Shown: positions 21,697-42,023 of the stretch, piece after piece
Layout: every line of letters starts with the position of its first letter
Numbering within the stretch: the first letter of the stretch is position 1
Assembly (NCBI GenBank): GCA_964020155.1
Contig: OZ026564.1
Location: 3,603,723-3,667,722 of the forward strand
From: Chondrilla cf. caribensis
Lineage: Eukaryota > Porifera > Demospongiae > Chondrillida > Chondrillidae
Reading direction: 5' to 3'
DNA length: 64,000 nt
Program-made: the position numbers and the translations under genes
The notes under the pieces: generated by a model
Databases searched by the model: none
The model's input: the letters and a program-made list of their open reading frames with translations, nothing else
What the model was told of the DNA's origin: nothing

Positions 21697-21954
21697 CGAG
21701 TTCACAGCCGTACAATCTTCTATGCTTAGACAATGTCAAACGACAGATAAGGCCACTCGTAACTCCCAACAGTTATGTACTTAAGAATTTCAATTTTATG
21801 TCACGTGCACGAATCGCCTACTACCTAGTATATACCTCGCGGTATTTTCGATCTTAAGTCGTATATACTCCCGCTGCAGTATAAGAAGCACATTATGATA
21901 TATATCCTTAATAATAACTTCAGCGAATGTTCTGAGCCTAAGGAAAGGTACTTT

Positions 21955-22060
21955 CTATTTTGCGGACGGTCCGCACGGACGGCTGACGGTGTCACGCTGG
22001 GGGCCCTGAAGGACTTCGTGTCCTGCTGTACGATAAGTGCAATGTATTCTTTATTTTCCG
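21955..22060. mobile_element. Fragment of a GCGGACGGTCCGC element
   Basis: GGTACTTTCTATTTTGCGGACGGTCCGC followed by ctgggggccctgaaggacttcgtgtc and ttctttattttcc. Shared with 41487-41614 and, partly in inverted order, with 60499-61065. Confidence 0.5.
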
Positions 22061-22187
22061 TTATGGGGGTTTTCAGCGGTATCTTCAGATTATTGTCAAG
22101 CAGTACTCCAACAGTAGTGATCGTATAAGCAGTACAAATATCGGAACAACAAACAAGAATAATGGTTCAACTTCTACAACAACATAC
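22061..22187 (-). pseudogene. Inverted fragment of a 7TM gene
   Basis: Read on the - strand this matches the helix 1 to helix 2 region of the 7TM array genes (CTTGTTTGTTGTTCCGATAT, GTTGGAGTACTGCTTGAC, CTGAAGATACCGCTGAAA) with indels and substitutions that break the frame. It directly precedes the truncated WDR61 copy, as its twin at 41615-41735 does. Confidence 0.75.
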
Positions 22188-33035: not shown

Positions 33036-35490
33036 TTAGTAGGCATACGGTGGGGGTTTATCCTCAATTGGAGCTGTTGGTTGAGGATAAGAAGGAACTG
33101 GGGCTGTTTGCTGACCTGGATAGCCAACTTGCTGTTGGTAGTCAGGTTGAGGTAGGTACCCTCCTTGCTGCTGTTGGTAGTCTGGCTGAGGTGGGTACCC
33201 TCCTTGCTGCTGTTGGTAGTTGGGCTGAGGTGGGTACCTTCCTTGCTGCTTTTGGTGGTTTGGCGGAGGTGGGTATCCTCCTTGCTGCTTTTGGTAGTTT
33301 GGTGGAGGTGGGTATCCTCTTTGCTGCTGTTGGTAGTTGGGCTGCTGTTGGTACACTACTTGCTGCTGCTGAGGCTGTTGATTCACCATAGTGACAGCTA
33401 CAGTAGTTCTTGCAGTGGTGGTGACAGGAGCTCTTACCACCCTTCTGGTCCTCTTCTTGTGCTTGGCACAGCACATCACAACAATACAGATGACACACGG
33501 GAGACCACACAGAAATATTGCAGCAATAACAACACCTGGAACAACCCCAGGAGAAAGTGTGCCTGTATGAGGTAAGAATATAATAAGTGATTTGAGTTGA
33601 AAAACTCAAGGGCTGCTGGCCCTTACAGTTGAATTAGTCAGTGTCTCTTTCATGTTTAGAAAAACCTTTGCTGAAGATATTACATTAAACTTATATGGAA
33701 ATACAAATTTATAAAAATTAATGGTTGATTTTGAAATGTCAAAAATTAGGAATTATGTAGGCTAGGATTCGAGTGCAAAGGCTTCTACAGGCAAATATCT
33801 CCAACAAAGTTCTTTTGAATTCAAACCTAAAAAAGATGACCGAGTAATTCGAGCACAGGCAGCAGCCCCACAAGGTTCTTTACTTGAATTACTAGCTATT
33901 ATTATACCATTGGATTCCATGTACCTGTATGTACTACATATTTAGTACATACACATAACCACATGGGAGACTCACTTGTTACAGAATGAGTGCACCTAAT
34001 CCCAATATCTTCACTATGTCCACAGTCTTCAACTCCTAGGCCTCCGTGATTACAGTTGATCAGTTGGGATTCACTTCCTGTACAGGTGACATCGTCCAAC
34101 CAGATAGTCTGACTGCTGGATCCACTACTCCTGAGTCTCCAATCACTGTCAAAGGCACCCTCAAACCCCATCTGCCTGCAAGCAACATTAGCTTCGTTGT
34201 CCCCCCAACCATCATTACAGACAGTGCCCCATTCTCCATTGACATAAATCTCAAGACGACCAGCATAGAGGAATGTGGAAGAAGAGGAACTGCCAACAAG
34301 CCTCAGTGAACCCTGCTGTAGACCTATGAGTGTAGTATGGATAAGATTAGGTAATGTTACTGTACTAAATACACATTCACAGAATGATTACATGATATAT
34401 ACAAGAATCACAAAAATCCCAATATGAATGCTGCACTACCTATGTGACTACAGTGTTCTGTAAGGAATTGGGGAAAGTAACTCAGAAGGGGAAGTACAAA
34501 ATGCTCCCACTTGCAGCACATTCTTAGAATATCACTCAATGACCACAGTGTGCCATTCATGTTCACCATTCCATGTACAAAATGCCATTGGAGTGGACCT
34601 GGGAATAACCTCATATCCAATTCTACATCAGTACGGTTATCATTACAAATATTATAATTGATATTGAATTCTGTACTCACTTGAGGTTGAACAGATAACA
34701 CCAACATCTTCACTGTGACTACAAGAGCTTGAAGAGGGGAAGCAGAATTCCAGTCTACTCTCAGTACCAGTACAAGAGAAAGAGGCCTCCCACTGTCCTC
34801 CTGTTCCTCGACCAAAGAGTGCATTGGTCACGACTCTAATGGCATATCCATATCCCAGTTGTCTACAGGCTACGTCAGCCACATTCAGGTCCCAACCATC
34901 ATCACAAACAGTCTGCCACTCTCTGCTACGGAACACCTCAACACGACCCTCATTGTCTACGCTGCCACCTACCAAACGTATGTCTTGAGCACTTCCTGTA
35001 GGGGAGGTTGACACAGAAGCCACTGATGAACAAGACAGTAATGTTGTAAATTCACCTTCTAATTACACATACTCAAGACAGTCTTGATGATAGGGAGTGG
35101 AGGAAGAACAAAATTACCATACTCCTTGTCAACTACAATTACAGAATACCCCCTAAAGATTGCATACCCCCTGGTTAATACCATGATTTGAATTGTTTCA
35201 AGGGAAATCCTCTCAGGCAATTTTGGGGCTGGAGAGTGTTTAGCAATAATTAGAGTTGAGAATGAGATACGTATACGAATTGAATTCGTTGACTGTGGTC
35301 CAAAAAGTGCTTCCCACCGATTAATAGTTTTCATATAAATGTGGCACCTACGTAGAACGTATAATCGGCCTCCCCACTCAAGGTCCGGGTAATGGGATAG
35401 GTGAGAGTGGCTTAACCATTGGAAATACTCACCGGGAGAAGCATTAACCACGAAGAGAACACAGGTACAGAGGGAAAAGATTGACATCAT
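33036..35490 (-). CDS. SRCR receptor C: signal peptide, two SRCR domains, membrane helix, PPxY tail
   Basis: Exons 35433-35490 (MMSIFSLCTCVLFVVNASP), 34681-35022, 33976-34323 and 33036-33562; 424 residues, phases consistent. The first SRCR has [20 protein letters not shown] and FGRGTGGQW; the second has [17 protein letters not shown] and GGLGVEDC. The tail has five repeats, two with QKQQ in place of QQQQ, and ends DKPPPYAY, a canonical PPxY. Leader and intron 1 match gene A closely (21227-21760 with 35023-35550), so C and A are recent duplicates. The 5' flank is interrupted by the transposon at 35823. Confidence 0.8.
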
Positions 35491-35820
35491 CGAGTTCACA
35501 GCCGTACAACCATAGATAATACAAACCGCACCGGGATTGGAAACTATCAAATTTCACTGAACCCAAGCTTGTCGCATACCGAACGTTCATGACGTCATCG
35601 ACCGTTACGAATTCTATTATAGAAGCGTGAAGTTTATAATGGCGTCTTCCATCGTTAGTTTTAGGAGGCCTCGTAGGCGGTTGTCCGTAATCTAACCTAT
35701 GCATGCTGACGTTATTATGATATTCGGACATATCCTCTAGATATCCGTCCGTGCGGTTTGTATTATCTATGCTTAGACAATGTCAAACGACAGATAAGGC
35801 CACTCGTAACTCCCAACAAT
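35491..35820 (-). promoter_or_regulatory. 5' flank of SRCR gene C
   Basis: No gene. Contains the GTTTGACATTGTC leader block shared with gene A (35770-35800 equals 21722-21765), plus about 220 bases not present upstream of A. Confidence 0.4.
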
Positions 35821-35822
35821 TA

Positions 35823-36376
35823 GAGTAAAAAATCAAAATCCGGACGCATCAAAATTCGGCCACTGATATCTCTCTTCATTCTGAACGCTTTAAATTCAAA
35901 TTGCCATCGATAGAAAGAACACAACAAGCACTATCATTTCCAGTAGTTAGGGTAATTTCCATTCGAAAGTTTTCGAGATATACGCCTCTAAACGCGATGG
36001 CCGAATTTTGCAAAATTCGGACATAATCACCAAACTCGGACAAAGCTTCACAGCATTCTAATGGAATATGGTATCATTATGAAACATTAACTACTTGTAC
36101 AACAGTTTGTTACCGATAGATGTGCGAAGTTTCAATGTTATAGCTTCATCCTTCAGAAAATGCTGCTTCTCTTTTCAGGAGGTGGCGTAACATCAAAATT
36201 CGGCCACCCTCAAAAACGCTCTGTCGAACAAGGGAGCTGGAACCAGTGGTGCAAACGTACCGACTTGATAACTGCAGAACACACAAGGTACTTACATGAT
36301 CATAAATAGAGGGTAGGCCTTGCTTCAGACCACAAATCTTGCAAATGATCGCGAACGCCATTTTATAATTGGTTTC
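35823..36376 (+). repeat. Left ~554-base terminal inverted repeat
   Basis: Pairs with 40766-41321 with only scattered differences. Contains the motif CAAAATTCGGCCA at 35850 and 36194, a related CAAAATCCGGAC near the tip, and a perfect 20-base palindrome CCGAATTTTGCAAAATTCGG at 36001-36020. These are candidate transposase-binding sites. It ends just before the leader exon of the gene. Confidence 0.9.
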
Positions 36377-36665
36377 GCTAGCTCTTCGTCGAGTGCGTGC
36401 TTTCAAAATTCGACTCGCACAGTGTTCGAGGAAGTTTCCAGGCCGTTTTGAGGCAAGCTCCGATACTTTTGTTTGCTACCAGCCTACCAGCCAAGGTGAG
36501 CGCGAATACACATGCATCGCTACATTATTGATTGTTCTATGGTACTGTTGTTATGCATACCCATCAACGCTTATGAAAACATTGGGTGGTAATACAAACA
36601 TTGTAAGTCACCACAGGAATGACGTCATGCATGTATAATAATTATACTACTTGCTATTGTAGATT
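36377..36665 (+). promoter_or_regulatory. Probable leader exon and intron of the transposase gene
   Basis: A GTGAGC donor at 36496 after cctaccagccaag and an acceptor TTGCTATTGTAG at 36651-36662 suggest a spliced leader, with translation starting at the ATG at 36666. A coding extension upstream is possible only from a non-ATG start. Confidence 0.4.
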
Positions 36666-39600
36666 ATGTTACATCATGCTGGTTTTAAGAAGAGGGTAAT
36701 ATCCTCTCAGCACGTAGTCCATCAAAGTGTGAACCCAATTACACTGAGAGAGGAGCACTACAAGATGTGGAAACAGGACAGCATGGCCAAGGCCATGGAG
36801 GATATCAGGAGTGGCTGCTCCATCAGGTCTGCATCCATAATGTATGGAATCCCAAAATCAACACTAGCAGATCATGTTAATGGCAAATCAACCAGCAGAT
36901 CGGGAGGTGCTTACCTAACTGCAGAAGAAGAGCATGAATTAGTTGATTTCCTACTTGAAGCAGCATCAGTAGGCTTTCCAAGGACTAGGAAGGACATACT
37001 GGCCATAGTCCAGAACATTGTAAGCAGCAGAAAGACAGGTATTATGGTGACAATGGGGTGGATGGATCGTTTCATCCAACGCCATCCAGAAGTAGCATTG
37101 CGAACTGCAATACCATTGTCACATAGCAGAGCAAAAGCAACAGATCCCGAGGCATTAATGAAGTATTTCAAAGTTTTGGAGACCTGCTTCATTGAAAATG
37201 AGATTGTTGACCCAGATCAGGTGTTCAATTGCGATGAAACAGGATTGCCAATGAATCCACTATCAGAGAAAGTGGTGGCTGCCAAGGGAGCCAAGCATGT
37301 TTCATGCATCACAGGAGGTAATAAATCTCAAACCACCGTTCTCGCCTGTAGCTGTGCAACCGGGACAGTTCTGCCACCTTTTGTTGTTCTTGACCGTCAA
37401 TCCCTCCACCCATCTTACGCCTGTGGAGAAGTGCCTGGCACCCATTACGGGATGTCGTCGAATGGATGGATGAACCAAGAGCTCTTCCAAGGATGGTTCA
37501 CCCACGTATTTTTGGAATGCATCCCTCCCAAACGCCCTGTCATCCTATTGATGGATGGACATTCATCGCACTACTGTCCAGAAACTATTCGAATGGCAGC
37601 AGAGCACCAGGTAGTTTTGTTTGCACTACCTCCAAACACCACCCACATTACACAACCTTTGGATCGTGCATGTTTTGCACCTCTAAAGGTCGCATGGCGT
37701 GAGGAGTGCCATCGATTTCAAACCCTGAACCCTGGTAAAGTGATCAATCGATTGGAATTCAGCGGCATTTTCTCTAGAGCCTGGTATAAGGCCATGAAAA
37801 TGGAGAATATTATTGCCGGCTTTAGGGTAACAGGTATTTACCCCCTCAATGCAGATGTCCTTCTGAAAGATTTGCCAATTAAGTCAGGAGTGAAGCAAGA
37901 AGTAGAAGTCCCTACTCTTGCATACATACCATTTCTTAGCCCTTTCCCAAGTCATCATCGATATCTTTCGTCTTCTCCGGGAACACCTGATGTATCCATT
38001 GGCAAGTATAGTCAGTCAAATGGTACTGTTACATCTGATTCAGCTGATACACCACCAATGACTGTTGAAGAACCTGACGGCAGCTTGACCCCCAAGTCTC
38101 CAAGCATCTGCATGCTAGCCTACAGGCAAAAAAGTGCAATAAGCAAATTTCTCGATCACTCACAGCTGCATAGTACCAGTGAAGCCAAGAAACCAGCCAA
38201 TCCAGGCAAAGTTTTGACTAGTATTCAGAACCTACAGATTTTGGAGGAAAAGGAGAAGCTTAAGGCACAGAAAGAGGAGAAGCGACTTCAACGGCAGCAA
38301 GCAAGGCTGAAGAAGAGAATTCAAAAGGATTATAAGCTTCCAATCAAGGCAGTGACAGCTGCAGGTAAGACATACGTATATACATAAGATTACATGACAT
38401 GTATACTGCATGAATTTCACCACAAGTGCTCGTTCAGCCTATTTTAATTGTAATAGTTTTCCAACATGCAGCAACTGTGACTAGTCTTGTTGAACAATCT
38501 GGTAAAGCAACAGGTGGGACGCCTATGCAGATCCTGGAAGACGCACTGGACCAGAAGATGCAAAGATCAAGCAAAGACTTATCAGGTATTGTTTTAATTA
38601 GTAACAATATATTTAGAGATGTAATCTGCCAATATACTGCATGCGCACATTACAGAACATTCAGTTGCAGTGGCTATGTAGAATGTATGTGTCATACCTT
38701 TTAATTTCTTTGTAGATGCATCCACCATGGCAAGTCAAAAGTTGCAAAAGCCCGGCTTGAGAACAAATCCAAAACAGCAGAAGATCCTCACCGATGAGAC
38801 TGAGAGCCAGAAAAAGCTTTCAGATCGACCAGAGGTAGCCAAGCAAAAGAAAAACATCCAAGGTACTCTAGAAGCATGATTATATATATATATAGGTATT
38901 GTTTTAATTGGTAACAATTTTCATGTTTAGTATTTCTGTGTGTTTATTGTGTTAACTTGTACTCTGTGTAGTTTGTTCTTCCTGTTCTGTACTATTATTT
39001 GTTATATTTTGATAATTATGAATATAATATATATATATATATTGAGTAAAAACGTATTCGACTCAATTGACCCATTTTTCGGCATCATCCCTACATATGA
39101 AGTACTACTATACTTCATGATATATATGTTTTGTACAAATTGTTCCAATTAAAGTCTTACTAATAGGACTTTGTCAGGTTTAGTCAATGACATCTTAATT
39201 AGTTCTATATGATGGCAATGTTAAAGTCAAGACATTTTAAACTAGCATAACCTGAGAAGCTGACAACCAGTAATATAAAATTGAAATTATTCAATTTTTG
39301 TCTGGAATTTACCTTAGTAAGTTACCCTACCCAAACTGCATGCAGGTACTGAGTCAAATGTGCCTGACAGAGCACAAAGTTTGACACTAATTACACCCAC
39401 CACCTGTGTGAAGAAGGAAGCAAAGAGATGCACTAATAATTCCAAACCCAAAAAACGTGAGTACATCTGTATGATTGGAGTGATATATATTACATATTGG
39501 ATAATTATAACGTACATATTTTTCCCACTGTATTATATAGAACAAATGGATTGGTGGATTAGGGAACTAAACCTTAATGCTAGTGCCAAGCATCGACTAC

Positions 39601-40476
39601 AGAATGGAGATGATCTTGATGACACGCTCATGAATGCAGCTCAGAGTCTTCTGCAGAAGCAATGCATGGATATTGGTGGATTTCAGAACACGCTTCTTGG
39701 GCAGAAATTGCAGTTTGGAGCAGTGGATCCCAAAAGGAAAGCTGTGCAGCTCATACATACAGGTTAGAAATGAGCGTATCATAAACAATCATTTTGTACT
39801 AGATTCTGCAACTGTTACAATGGAAACATGTAGAGAAGATCTTTACCAAGATCTCTACTCTAAAGCTAGCAGTTCTGAAAAAATAATCAGCTCAATTATA
39901 AAACCATTACTTATATATATACTACTGTATATGTTATTAGGTGAATCACACTGGATATGTGCATACAGGGAAGCAGGAAGCAACACTGCCATTGTTCTGG
40001 ACAGTCTAGGATCGGAGATGGATACTTCCACACACACACTCCTACAACTAGCAACAATGTTCAAGCCAGCTGCACCTGCTGATTCTATCAACATTCAGCT
40101 GAAGTCAGTCCAGCAGCAGCAGGGTTTGCATGACTGTGGCCTGTTTGCCATAGCTTTTTCAGTAGAGGTGTGCAAAGGCAATGATGCATCAGGTATAGTC
40201 TTCAACCAGGGCAAAATGCGAAAACACCTGCAAGCCTGTCTGGAAAATGGTTTCATGTCACTCTTCCCAAAAGCCAAAAATAGAAAAGGTGCCAACTTTT
40301 CAGAAGAAAGAACTGTTGTGGAGGAACTCTACTGTATTTGCAGAATGCCAGAGATGTTTGATGAGCGGATGATTTCCTGCGACAAATGCAACAAGTGGTA
40401 CCACTGTAAGTGTATTCGAATGCCTAGAGGAAGGAAACAGTTTAGGTGTCCAAAATGTAGATCTGGCTTTCTGTGA
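36666..40476 (+). CDS. Transposase fused to Ulp1-like protease domain and PHD finger
   Basis: Exons 36666-38364, 38472-38585, 38716-38862, 39346-39456, 39541-39762 and 39941-40476, all GT-AG and phase 1, giving 942 residues. Psq/CENP-B-type helix-turn-helix at about 40-75 (GIPKSTLADHVNG), CENP-B second HTH about 85-150, and a DDE_1 catalytic core with D190 (FNCDETG), D297 (LLMDGHSSH) and D333 (TQPLDRACF), 35 residues between the last two. A low-complexity linker follows (570-690). Residues ~690-880 resemble a Ulp1/SENP (C48) peptidase: H768 in ESHW, D785 in VLDS, Q825 and C830 in QQGLHDCGLF. The C-terminus (896-937) is a C4HC3 PHD finger with WYH. All catalytic residues are present. The fused layout depends on splicing predicted by eye. 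Roles inferred: cut-and-paste, possible SUMO or ubiquitin-like processing, and chromatin reading. Confidence 0.82.
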
Positions 40477-40765
40477 ACACCTTCTGCTGCACCACTTGGC
40501 TTACTGGCATTTTCTAGACTAAGTGTCATTACAAGAAAATGCATGGGACAGTTTCATCTTTTGGTTTTGCGTTTTTTTGTGTTTTTGCGTTAACGTTGTT
40601 TTTAACTCAACTCAAGTACAGGCTAGTGGAGACTTGCTATGGCTACATTTTATCCAGCAGGTGACTAAATTAAGCTTTTAATGGACCTGGCTGAACTGTG
40701 TCTCATAGGATAGCTAACTAACATCAAAAGTACACACTCGACATATATAGGTTACATATTATAGT
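40477..40765 (+). other. 3' region of the transposase gene
   Basis: Sequence between the stop codon and the right inverted repeat; no further gene. Confidence 0.4.
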
Positions 40766-41321
40766 GAAACCAATCATAAAATGGCGTTCGCGATATCATT
40801 TGAAAGATTTGTGGCCTGATGCAAGGCCTACCCTCCATTGATGATCATGTAAGTACCTTGTGTGTTCTGCAGTTATCAAGTCGGTACGTTTGCACCACTG
40901 GTTCCAGCTCCCTTGTTCGACAGAGCGTTTTTGAGGGTGGCCGAATTTTGATGTTACGCCACCTCCTGAAAAGAGAAGCAGCATTTTCTGAAGGATGAAG
41001 CTATAACATTGAAACTTCGCACATCTATTGGTAACAAACTGTTGTACAAGTAGTTAATGTTTCATAATGATACCATATTCCATTAGAATGCTGTGAAGCT
41101 TTGTCCGAGTTTGGTGATTATGTCCGAATTTTGCAAAATTCGGCCATCGCGTTTAGAGGCGTATATCTCGAAAACTTTCGAATGGAAATTACCCTAACTA
41201 CTGGAAATGATAGTGCTTGTTGTGTTCTTTCTATCGATGGCAATTTGAATTTAAAGCGTTCAGAATGAAGAGAGATATCAGTGGCCGAATTTTGATGCGT
41301 CCGGATTTTGATTTTTTACTC
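40766..41321 (-). repeat. Right ~556-base terminal inverted repeat
   Basis: Inverted partner of 35823-36376, with the same 20-base palindrome at 41124-41143 and the same CAAAATTCGGCCA-type motifs. Confidence 0.9.
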
Positions 41322-41323
41322 TA

Positions 41324-41614
41324 TGTACTTAAGAATTTCAATTTTATGTCACGTGCACGAATCGCCTACTACCTAGTACCTCGCGGTATTTTCGATCTTA
41401 AGTCGTATATACTCCCGCTGCAGTATAAGAAGCACATTATGATCTCCTTAATAATAACTTCAGCGAATGTTCTGAGCCTAAGGAAAAGGTACTTTCTATT
41501 TTGCGGACGGTCCGCACGGACGGCGGGCGGAATATGCGGACGGTGTCACGCTGGGGGCCCTGAAGGACTTCGTGTCCTGCTGAACGATAAGTGCAATGTA
41601 TTCTTTATTTTCCG
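41324..41614. other. Segment shared with 21775-22060
   Basis: Direct continuation of the duplicated flank interrupted by the transposon. Includes the GCGGACGGTCCGC element fragment at 41487-41614. No gene. Confidence 0.5.
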
Positions 41615-41735
41615 TTATGGGGTTTTCAGTGGTGTCTTCAGATTGTTGTCAAGCAGTACTCCAACAGTAGTGATCGTATAAGCAGTACAAATATCGGAAT
41701 AACAAACAAGAATAATGGGTCAACTGTTACAACAT
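41615..41735 (-). pseudogene. Second inverted 7TM gene fragment
   Basis: Counterpart of 22061-22187, covering the helix 1-2 region of the 7TM family with the same indels, so it arose before the segments duplicated. Confidence 0.7.
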
Positions 41736-41794
41736 AATATTCAGCAAGAAGGTACATATGAAAAATGCTACCCGTTCACGCATGCACGCATGTA

Positions 41795-41796
41795 CA

Positions 41797-41848
<52 letters not shown>

Positions 41849-41922
41849 CACGCATACACGCACACACACACACGCATGCACGCACGCAAGCACACACACA
41901 CACACATGCATGCACGCACGCA

Positions 41923-42000
<78 letters not shown>
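41795..42000. repeat. (CA)n microsatellite
   Basis: CA run with CGCA and CATG variants, like that following WDR61 exon 13324-13417. Confidence 0.85.
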
Positions 42001-42003
<3 letters not shown>

Positions 42004-42023
42004 TCCATTGCATGCCCTTATAG

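Follow-up and report, generated by a model that had tools for sequence, protein, structure and literature searches.

A pogo-type transposon of a sponge with a predicted transposase, Ulp1-like protease and PHD finger in one gene

The window is a stretch of 64,000 nucleotides from the sponge Chondrilla cf. caribensis (assembly GCA_964020155.1, contig OZ026564.1, positions 3,603,723 to 3,667,722 of the forward strand) and contains a complete transposon. The element is real and recent; it was found with its ends, its TA duplication, an empty site and several recent copies, and its exon layout and its catalytic and zinc-binding residues are conserved. It belongs to the pogo superfamily by its domains, its TA duplication and its terminal inverted repeats (TIRs); the transposase tree described below holds the element's relatives, without named pogo references. 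We consider it probable that this is a pogo cut-and-paste transposon which inserts at TA and encodes one predicted transposase-protease-PHD protein, likely holding on to chromatin methylated at lysine 4 of histone H3 (H3K4) and likely removing SUMO- or ubiquitin-type tags. An earlier note on this DNA had proposed a pogo transposon with transposase, Ulp1-like protease and PHD finger in one transcription unit. This is supported, because the copies, the ends, the empty site, the conserved splice sites and a joined gene model of Amphimedon point to it. The span given there, 36666..40476, is right for the coding part; the whole element extends from 35823 to 41321.

The ends of the element and its empty target site

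The borders were placed as follows (window positions).
21719..22067, plus strand, empty target site: the same flanks joined, with a single TA and without the element
35821..35822, no strand, left TA target-site duplication (a single TA in the empty site; all five copies flanked by TA left and right)
35823..41321, plus strand, complete pogo-type transposon, copy A, 5499 bp (from ends, copies and empty site)
35823..36382, plus strand, left TIR, about 560 nt, first letters GAGTAAAAAATC
40762..41321, minus strand, right TIR, about 560 nt
41322..41323, no strand, right TA target-site duplication (from copies and empty site)

The arms of the repeat match at 99% between 35821-36349 and 40795-41323 and at 94% between 36348-36380 and 40762-40794, and both ends of the element open with TA followed by GAGTAAAAAATC. 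The empty site was found by joining both element flanks and searching the genome (137 Mb, 37 contigs) with them. It lies 14 kb from the element, inside the window; the match covers 57 bp on the left side of the junction and, interrupted by small gaps, about 300 bp on the right side. Since the empty site has one TA where the element has two, the element ends and the TA duplication are fixed. The window stretches 21719-22067 and about 35766-41621 form a duplication of which the second copy received the element. Among the five copies described below, A to E, the search covered the flanks of A and D. For copy D the outcome was limited to partial repeat matches (78-86%) that lie across the junction or next to it; one that spans it (C23:1794076, 81%) is unaligned.

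The gene and its transposase part

The gene model and its domains are listed below.
36666..38364, plus strand, exon 1, DNA-binding domain and DDD transposase core, amino acids (aa) 1-566
36774..36890, plus strand, HTH_psq DNA-binding domain, aa 37-75 (Pfam 1.2e-8, above cut-off)
36921..37094, plus strand, HTH_Tnp_Tc5-like stretch, aa 86-143 (17.6 bits, below the Pfam cut-off of 22.2)
37332..37823, plus strand, DDE_1 match, aa 223-386 (Pfam 6.8e-24, above cut-off)
37233-37235, 37554-37556 and 37662-37664, plus strand, transposase triad D190 (upstream of the DDE_1 match), D297 and D333
38472..38585, plus strand, exon 2, linker
38716..38862, plus strand, exon 3, lysine-rich linker
39346..39456, plus strand, exon 4, linker
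39541..39762, plus strand, exon 5, N-terminal part of the Ulp1-like domain, aa 691-764
39941..40476, plus strand, exon 6, catalytic protease part, PHD finger and stop
39949-39951, 40000-40002, 40117-40119 and 40135-40137, plus strand, predicted catalytic residues H768, D785, Q824 and C830
40333..40458, plus strand, PHD finger, C4HC3, C896..C937 (Pfam 2.5e-6, above cut-off)

The six exons, read by the earlier note as being in one phase, join into 942 aa without a stop, and all five introns are GT-AG and of phase 1; the triad residues are also those the note had named. D297 and D333 are separated by 35 residues (DD35D). The pogo type is recognised by a DDD triad in DDE_1 together with an N-terminal helix-turn-helix domain, both found here with DDE_1 and HTH_psq above cut-off, and by the TA target-site duplication and TIRs. 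No integrase family was matched in the window protein (Pfam, E up to 1), and a PDB search with exon 1 returned nothing useful.

A predicted gene with the same domains is present in the demosponge Amphimedon queenslandica. The transposase of LOC109581489 (P0005-P0010, NCBI-predicted isoforms of 1117-1370 aa) is 42% identical in the protein search, its Pfam matches are DDE_1, HTH_psq and PHD, and its C-terminal end shows the same protease motif and PHD when aligned to the protease-PHD module. Like the window element it has HTH_psq, DDE_1, Ulp1-like and PHD parts in one predicted protein; it differs by a long tandem-repeat linker, and it is known as a gene model alone, recorded as an uncharacterized protein. 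Dysidea avara, also a demosponge, has an exon-1 relative with a PHD-type finger.

Copies and sister families in the genome

Exon 1 matched 77 places in the genome, of which five are near-identical. The five copies, assembled from overlapping loci, measure 5499, 5522, 5514, 5224 and 5527 bp and are 98.5-99.5% alike. Each is flanked by TA on both sides, at a different place, and the reading frame is open throughout in three of them (942, 942 and 940 aa). Used as a DNA query, the TIR gave 11 matches: each of the five copies at its two ends, plus a partial match elsewhere; the family is therefore small and recent. The partial match lies alone on contig C19 of the genome (G000 C19:1455675-1456025, 85% over 342 nt). 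No short derivatives of the copy A family were seen with the TIR query, match counts being lower bounds.

Two sister families carry the same tail as well, family 2 on C4, C16 and C2 and family 3 on C5. Their transposases are 48-51% identical to that of the window over the part matched by HMMER, where the C2 copy was matched as two pieces (54 and 40%); for F, G and H the identity is about 43-45% over nearly all of exon 1. The sister TIRs are about 380-391 nt long and 95-99.5% alike. Family 2 ends with TA and GAGTAAAAAACGG on both sides in three of three copies; the one copy of family 3 has TA and GAGTAAATAATAT at its right end, and its outermost left bases differ. A fifth place, J on C2, holds degraded module pieces. 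The earlier note had proposed a search for other copies with the same fusion; the predicted fusion is seen in the near-identical copies and the sister families. It had also named a protease and PHD sequence outside the inverted repeats as a refuting result; the two exons lie inside them in all five near-identical copies and in the four of four sister copies for which repeats were found.

Elements that carry the protease module account for 10 rows (9 loci) among the 77 places matched by exon 1. The match at C18:2993114 has a PHD-like match 1.9 kb away without a protease, and two further exon-1 matches are mere neighbours of protease-module elements. This neighbour count used 52 of 69 rows, the other 17 being second pieces of the same places.

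That these loci are a multi-copy host gene family is hardly conceivable. A large spliced protein with chromatin domains would suit a host gene, and the Amphimedon gene is a model only, but the inverted repeats, the TA duplications at five sites and the empty site speak for a transposon; the host-gene reading was rejected because of the empty site.

The protease domain and the PHD finger

All 17 modules in the alignment share the residues H, D, Q and C (13 of these modules are distinct once near-duplicates are removed; fragment J, L048, L051, L052, L057 and L060 were left out). Of 57 aligned database relatives, every one has H, Q and C and 55 have D; the alignments A2 and A3 took 60 and 57 of the relatives among the matches listed. 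The aligned glutamine is Q824, six residues before C830. The H-D-Q-C layout of the earlier note stands for H768, D785 and C830, and its Q825 is replaced by Q824. On the whole protein, the CE-clan catalytic domain RickCE_cat was matched at 4.2e-6 (Pfam, above cut-off). The profile search proposed earlier for the protease exons and the C-terminus gave 21.6 bits for Peptidase_C48 on the C-terminal piece alone (cut-off 20.7) and the listed PHD match. Both the active-site order H-D-Q-C and the fold are those of the CE clan. The earlier label 'SUMO-type' goes beyond the evidence: a NEDD8 protease and deubiquitinases rank among the fold-search matches too.

There is a real, if lesser, chance that the main target of the protease is the element's own protein or ubiquitin, and that it stabilises the transposase, processes the fusion or helps the repair of excision sites, with no role in silencing. 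The NEDD8 protease and the deubiquitinases among the fold neighbours are in line with this, as is OtDUB, to which the protease part comes closest in the single-sequence PDB search; a DNA repair role has been proposed for the Ulp1/OTU domains of Ginger1 transposons (Bao et al. 2010, PMC2836005; here and below, papers are cited from their available text). The pairing with a PHD finger points instead to chromatin, but is not decisive, as the PHD finger could serve targeting alone.

The C4HC3 PHD finger of the earlier note was confirmed by its profile match and by eight zinc ligands, C896, C898, C911, C914, H919, C922, C934 and C937. Among solved structures it is closest to Spp1, BPTF and PHF2, all three with recorded H3K4me3 complexes. 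The aromatic cage positions are Y895, M908 and W917, and it is plausible from this predicted cage that the finger reads methylated H3K4. E902 stands at the position of BPTF Y17 and was aligned by phmmer with the glutamate of 2ri7, whose title names a BPTF Y17E mutant bound to H3K4me2; the Y17E variant is reported to favour the dimethyl mark (PMC4589357). Among 57 relatives this position is E in 27, D in 17, W in 6, Y in 3, Q in 2, H in 1 and K in 1. This suggests a possible preference for lower methylation. E902 alone does not decide a preference for H3K4me2, because Spp1, the best single-sequence PDB match, which was crystallised with H3K4me3, has an aspartate aligned there, in a loop one residue shorter.

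Selection on the tail and its joining to the transposase

Counted over the five copies, changes in the protease-PHD part number 5 nonsynonymous and 6 synonymous, where 79% would be expected to be nonsynonymous (p 0.014); for the transposase the counts are 13 and 13 (78% expected, p 0.0018). The TIRs are more variable than exons 5-6 (p 0.0003).

A number of results weigh against a functional tail joined to the transposase. In copy B codon 696 is a stop, and in copy D a deletion runs across exons 4-5. Exons 5-6 do not differ significantly from the introns in variable columns (11/758 vs 19/1037, p 0.58). The selection test is built on few changes and pools copies of common ancestry; since the copies share ancestry, its result gives modest support. 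On the whole protein Peptidase_C48 reached 18.7 bits, under the cut-off of 20.7, and a model of exon 6 alone, without exon 5, found no Foldseek match at E <=0.001, the best values being 6.4e-3 for BPTF and 0.041 for SENP5. In the Amphimedon proteins and in the database protein P0001 no Pfam peptidase family was matched at E 0.1, and the protease there is recognised by the module alignment. Splicing into one 942-residue protein in Chondrilla is itself predicted from sequence alone.

It is nevertheless very unlikely that the tail is a captured passenger without function. The breaks in copies B and D, the few changes in the test and exons no less variable than introns would fit a passenger, but the catalytic residues are aligned in every module, nonsynonymous changes are fewer than neutral, and the tail is kept in two further families with transposases 48-51% identical over the matched part.

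We also regard it as unlikely, though less so, that protease and PHD finger form a second, separately expressed gene inside the element, unjoined to the transposase. Apart from the predicted nature of the joining, such an arrangement has a counterpart on C11 (L063+L058+L064, about 2365977-2369024). This DDE_1 element of about 3.05 kb has perfect 44-nt repeats and, between them, a separate convergent gene with a HIRAN-like part (24.2 bits vs cut-off 24.7) and a related Ulp1-like protease (Peptidase_C48, 24.7 vs 20.7); no PHD was seen. In the window gene, however, all introns are of phase 1, the position of intron 5 is shared, to the codon, by families 1, 2 and 3 (donor ATACAG/GT, acceptor AG, with intron sequences that differ), and the Amphimedon model has all domains in one protein. 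Protease loci resembling the convergent gene of C11 were seen at L054, L055 and L059.

Known systems and the distribution of the cassette

The pair of Ulp1 and PHD is already known; what is new is its carrier, a pogo transposon. As the earlier note stated, Ulp1 domains occur in some other DNA transposon superfamilies; Ginger1 and Mutator are two of them. Ginger1 carries Ulp1 or OTU tails, Ginger1-9_HM of Hydra being given as 'Ulp1, PHD', and its Ulp1 and PHD were aligned with those of Mutator transposases (Bao et al. 2010, PMC2836005). Ginger1-9_HM resembles the window element as a cut-and-paste element with introns and a transposase with C-terminal Ulp1 and PHD. Ginger1 differs by a Gypsy-integrase-type transposase, CCGG/CCGT duplications and tabulated TIRs of 44-270 bp (PMC2836005), whereas the transposase of the window element is of the pogo DDD type, its duplication is TA and its repeats measure 560 nt; the transposase core is DDE_1, not an integrase with zinc finger and GPY/F. 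Mutator-like transposons with Ulp1 (and PHD) domains, cited in PMC2836005, and P0001 share the tail, but their transposase is of the MULE type.

Among pogo elements, the Fot/Fot-like layout comes near, with HTH_psq and a Tc5-type stretch (under cut-off in the window), DD35D and TA duplication (PMC7386202). Pogo spacings of DD29-59 and TIR types have been given, and Fot/Fot-like elements with a lone HTH_psq are reported as well (Gao et al. 2020, PMC7386202). The same source gives pogo lengths of 1.2-5.2 kb, against 5.5 kb in the window, and long TIRs, of 392-856 bp, only for insects. Neither Ulp1 nor PHD nor protease occurs as a word in the available main text of this paper or in that of a phylogenetic study of Tc1/mariner and pogo (PMC7325037). 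The available text of PMC10027918, on transposon-derived transcription factors in animals, has neither PHD nor Ulp1, and that of PMC10799480 lacks Ulp1, its pogo/PHD passages being absent or on other proteins. In agreement with the earlier note, our literature search, which went for the most part by listed entries and had Repbase, preprints (bioRxiv) and most subscription papers outside its scope, turned up no pogo family with Ulp1 and PHD. The predicted pogo-Ulp1-PHD combination, with the same tail throughout, is present in three families of one genome and in the Amphimedon gene model.

With the module profile, 681 proteins scored E <=0.001, the best 120 of them being listed, and a single-protein search with the C-terminal region found one relative. 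In P0001 the module stands behind a MULE transposase (Pfam MULE), with a tail 36% identical to that of the window over 84%. By eye, it also lies, in the genome of the window, behind Ginger1-type integrase-like frames in L042 and L043/L044 and behind the tail of a Ginger1-type frame in L041 and L056. The integrase and GPY/F parts of L042/L043 were judged by eye against known motifs, and their sole Pfam match is SH3_Tf2-1 (16.7 bits, under the cut-off of 30). A Gypsy retrotransposon was rejected for L042 and L043; the two are called Ginger1-like because no reverse-transcriptase-like frame of at least 120 aa was seen by eye in 4 kb upstream (L061, L062), where an intron-split one would escape view. 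No transposase frame of at least 110 aa was seen by eye within 4 kb of L049 and L050.

In the transposase tree, the seven protease-bearing pogo rows fall into one clade with support of 100, together with eight rows of unknown tail and one without tail. Scoring the unknown rows as tail-less requires four changes of the tail label, three of them forced by well-supported branches. This tree has 34 rows, including 11 of the best 120 database proteins; the near-copies L002-L004 as well as L014, L026, L027 and L028, and 47 genome matches without a locus, were left out. In the module tree, made with 43 of the best 120 database rows and without pogo2_G, pogo2_I, Ging_L042 and HIRAN_L054, the four pogo modules form a group with support of 83 that includes two database rows, and the three Ginger1-like modules stand in three places. 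A single gain in the pogo clade from a cassette circulating among transposons would fit these trees, but is not proven. The same accessory cassette is found on transposase types of separate origin, which would make accessory domains a trait exchanged between transposon superfamilies.

Other pogo-type frames of the genome, at L011, L022 and L025, have a PHD finger at their end (Pfam) but no protease within the frame, and PHD-like ends were seen by eye at L010, L020, L024, L026, L027, L029 and L030.

A possible working of the fusion

Transposons need to open silenced donor DNA and to choose safe targets. In the proposed mechanism, the transposase part would cut the element out and insert it at TA, the PHD finger would anchor the transposase at chromatin of promoter or enhancer type, and the protease would take host modifiers off repressors or off the transposase itself, which would keep donor or target open. 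The activity and substrate of the enzyme, histone binding and the purpose of the tail are what we infer from these domains, and the role in host silencing and in the choice of open chromatin that the earlier note had put forward may follow from them. One predicted protein with a cutting enzyme, a tag-removing protease and a histone reader, kept in several families, would make donor opening and target choice testable together.

More speculatively, Ulp1 protease and PHD finger could be a portable chromatin-access kit repeatedly acquired by pogo, Ginger1 and Mutator. The finger, with its natural Y17E-like acidic swap, would then read H3K4me2 and not H3K4me3 and steer insertion to primed promoters or enhancers, and the protease would strip SUMO-dependent silencing from element and target. 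We hold this extended version to be rather doubtful.

Surroundings of the copies

Copy B is inserted on C8 (near 2119386), 195 bp upstream of an ATG whose frame stays open to the end of the locus, over at least 153 aa. This frame, beside the left flank of the copy, resembles by eye a SAND-domain gene, a single case of interest for promoter targeting. L067 and L068 are palindromic elements of 855 bp each, flanked by TA, whose first 50 bp are 76% identical to the ends of the window element; ends matching them lie beside copy D. They may be mobilised by the pogo group of the window element. In the window, frames resembling scavenger-receptor cysteine-rich (SRCR) repeats by eye adjoin the element at 33902-35062 on the minus strand, and a long CA/TG simple repeat lies just right of it at 41770-42017.
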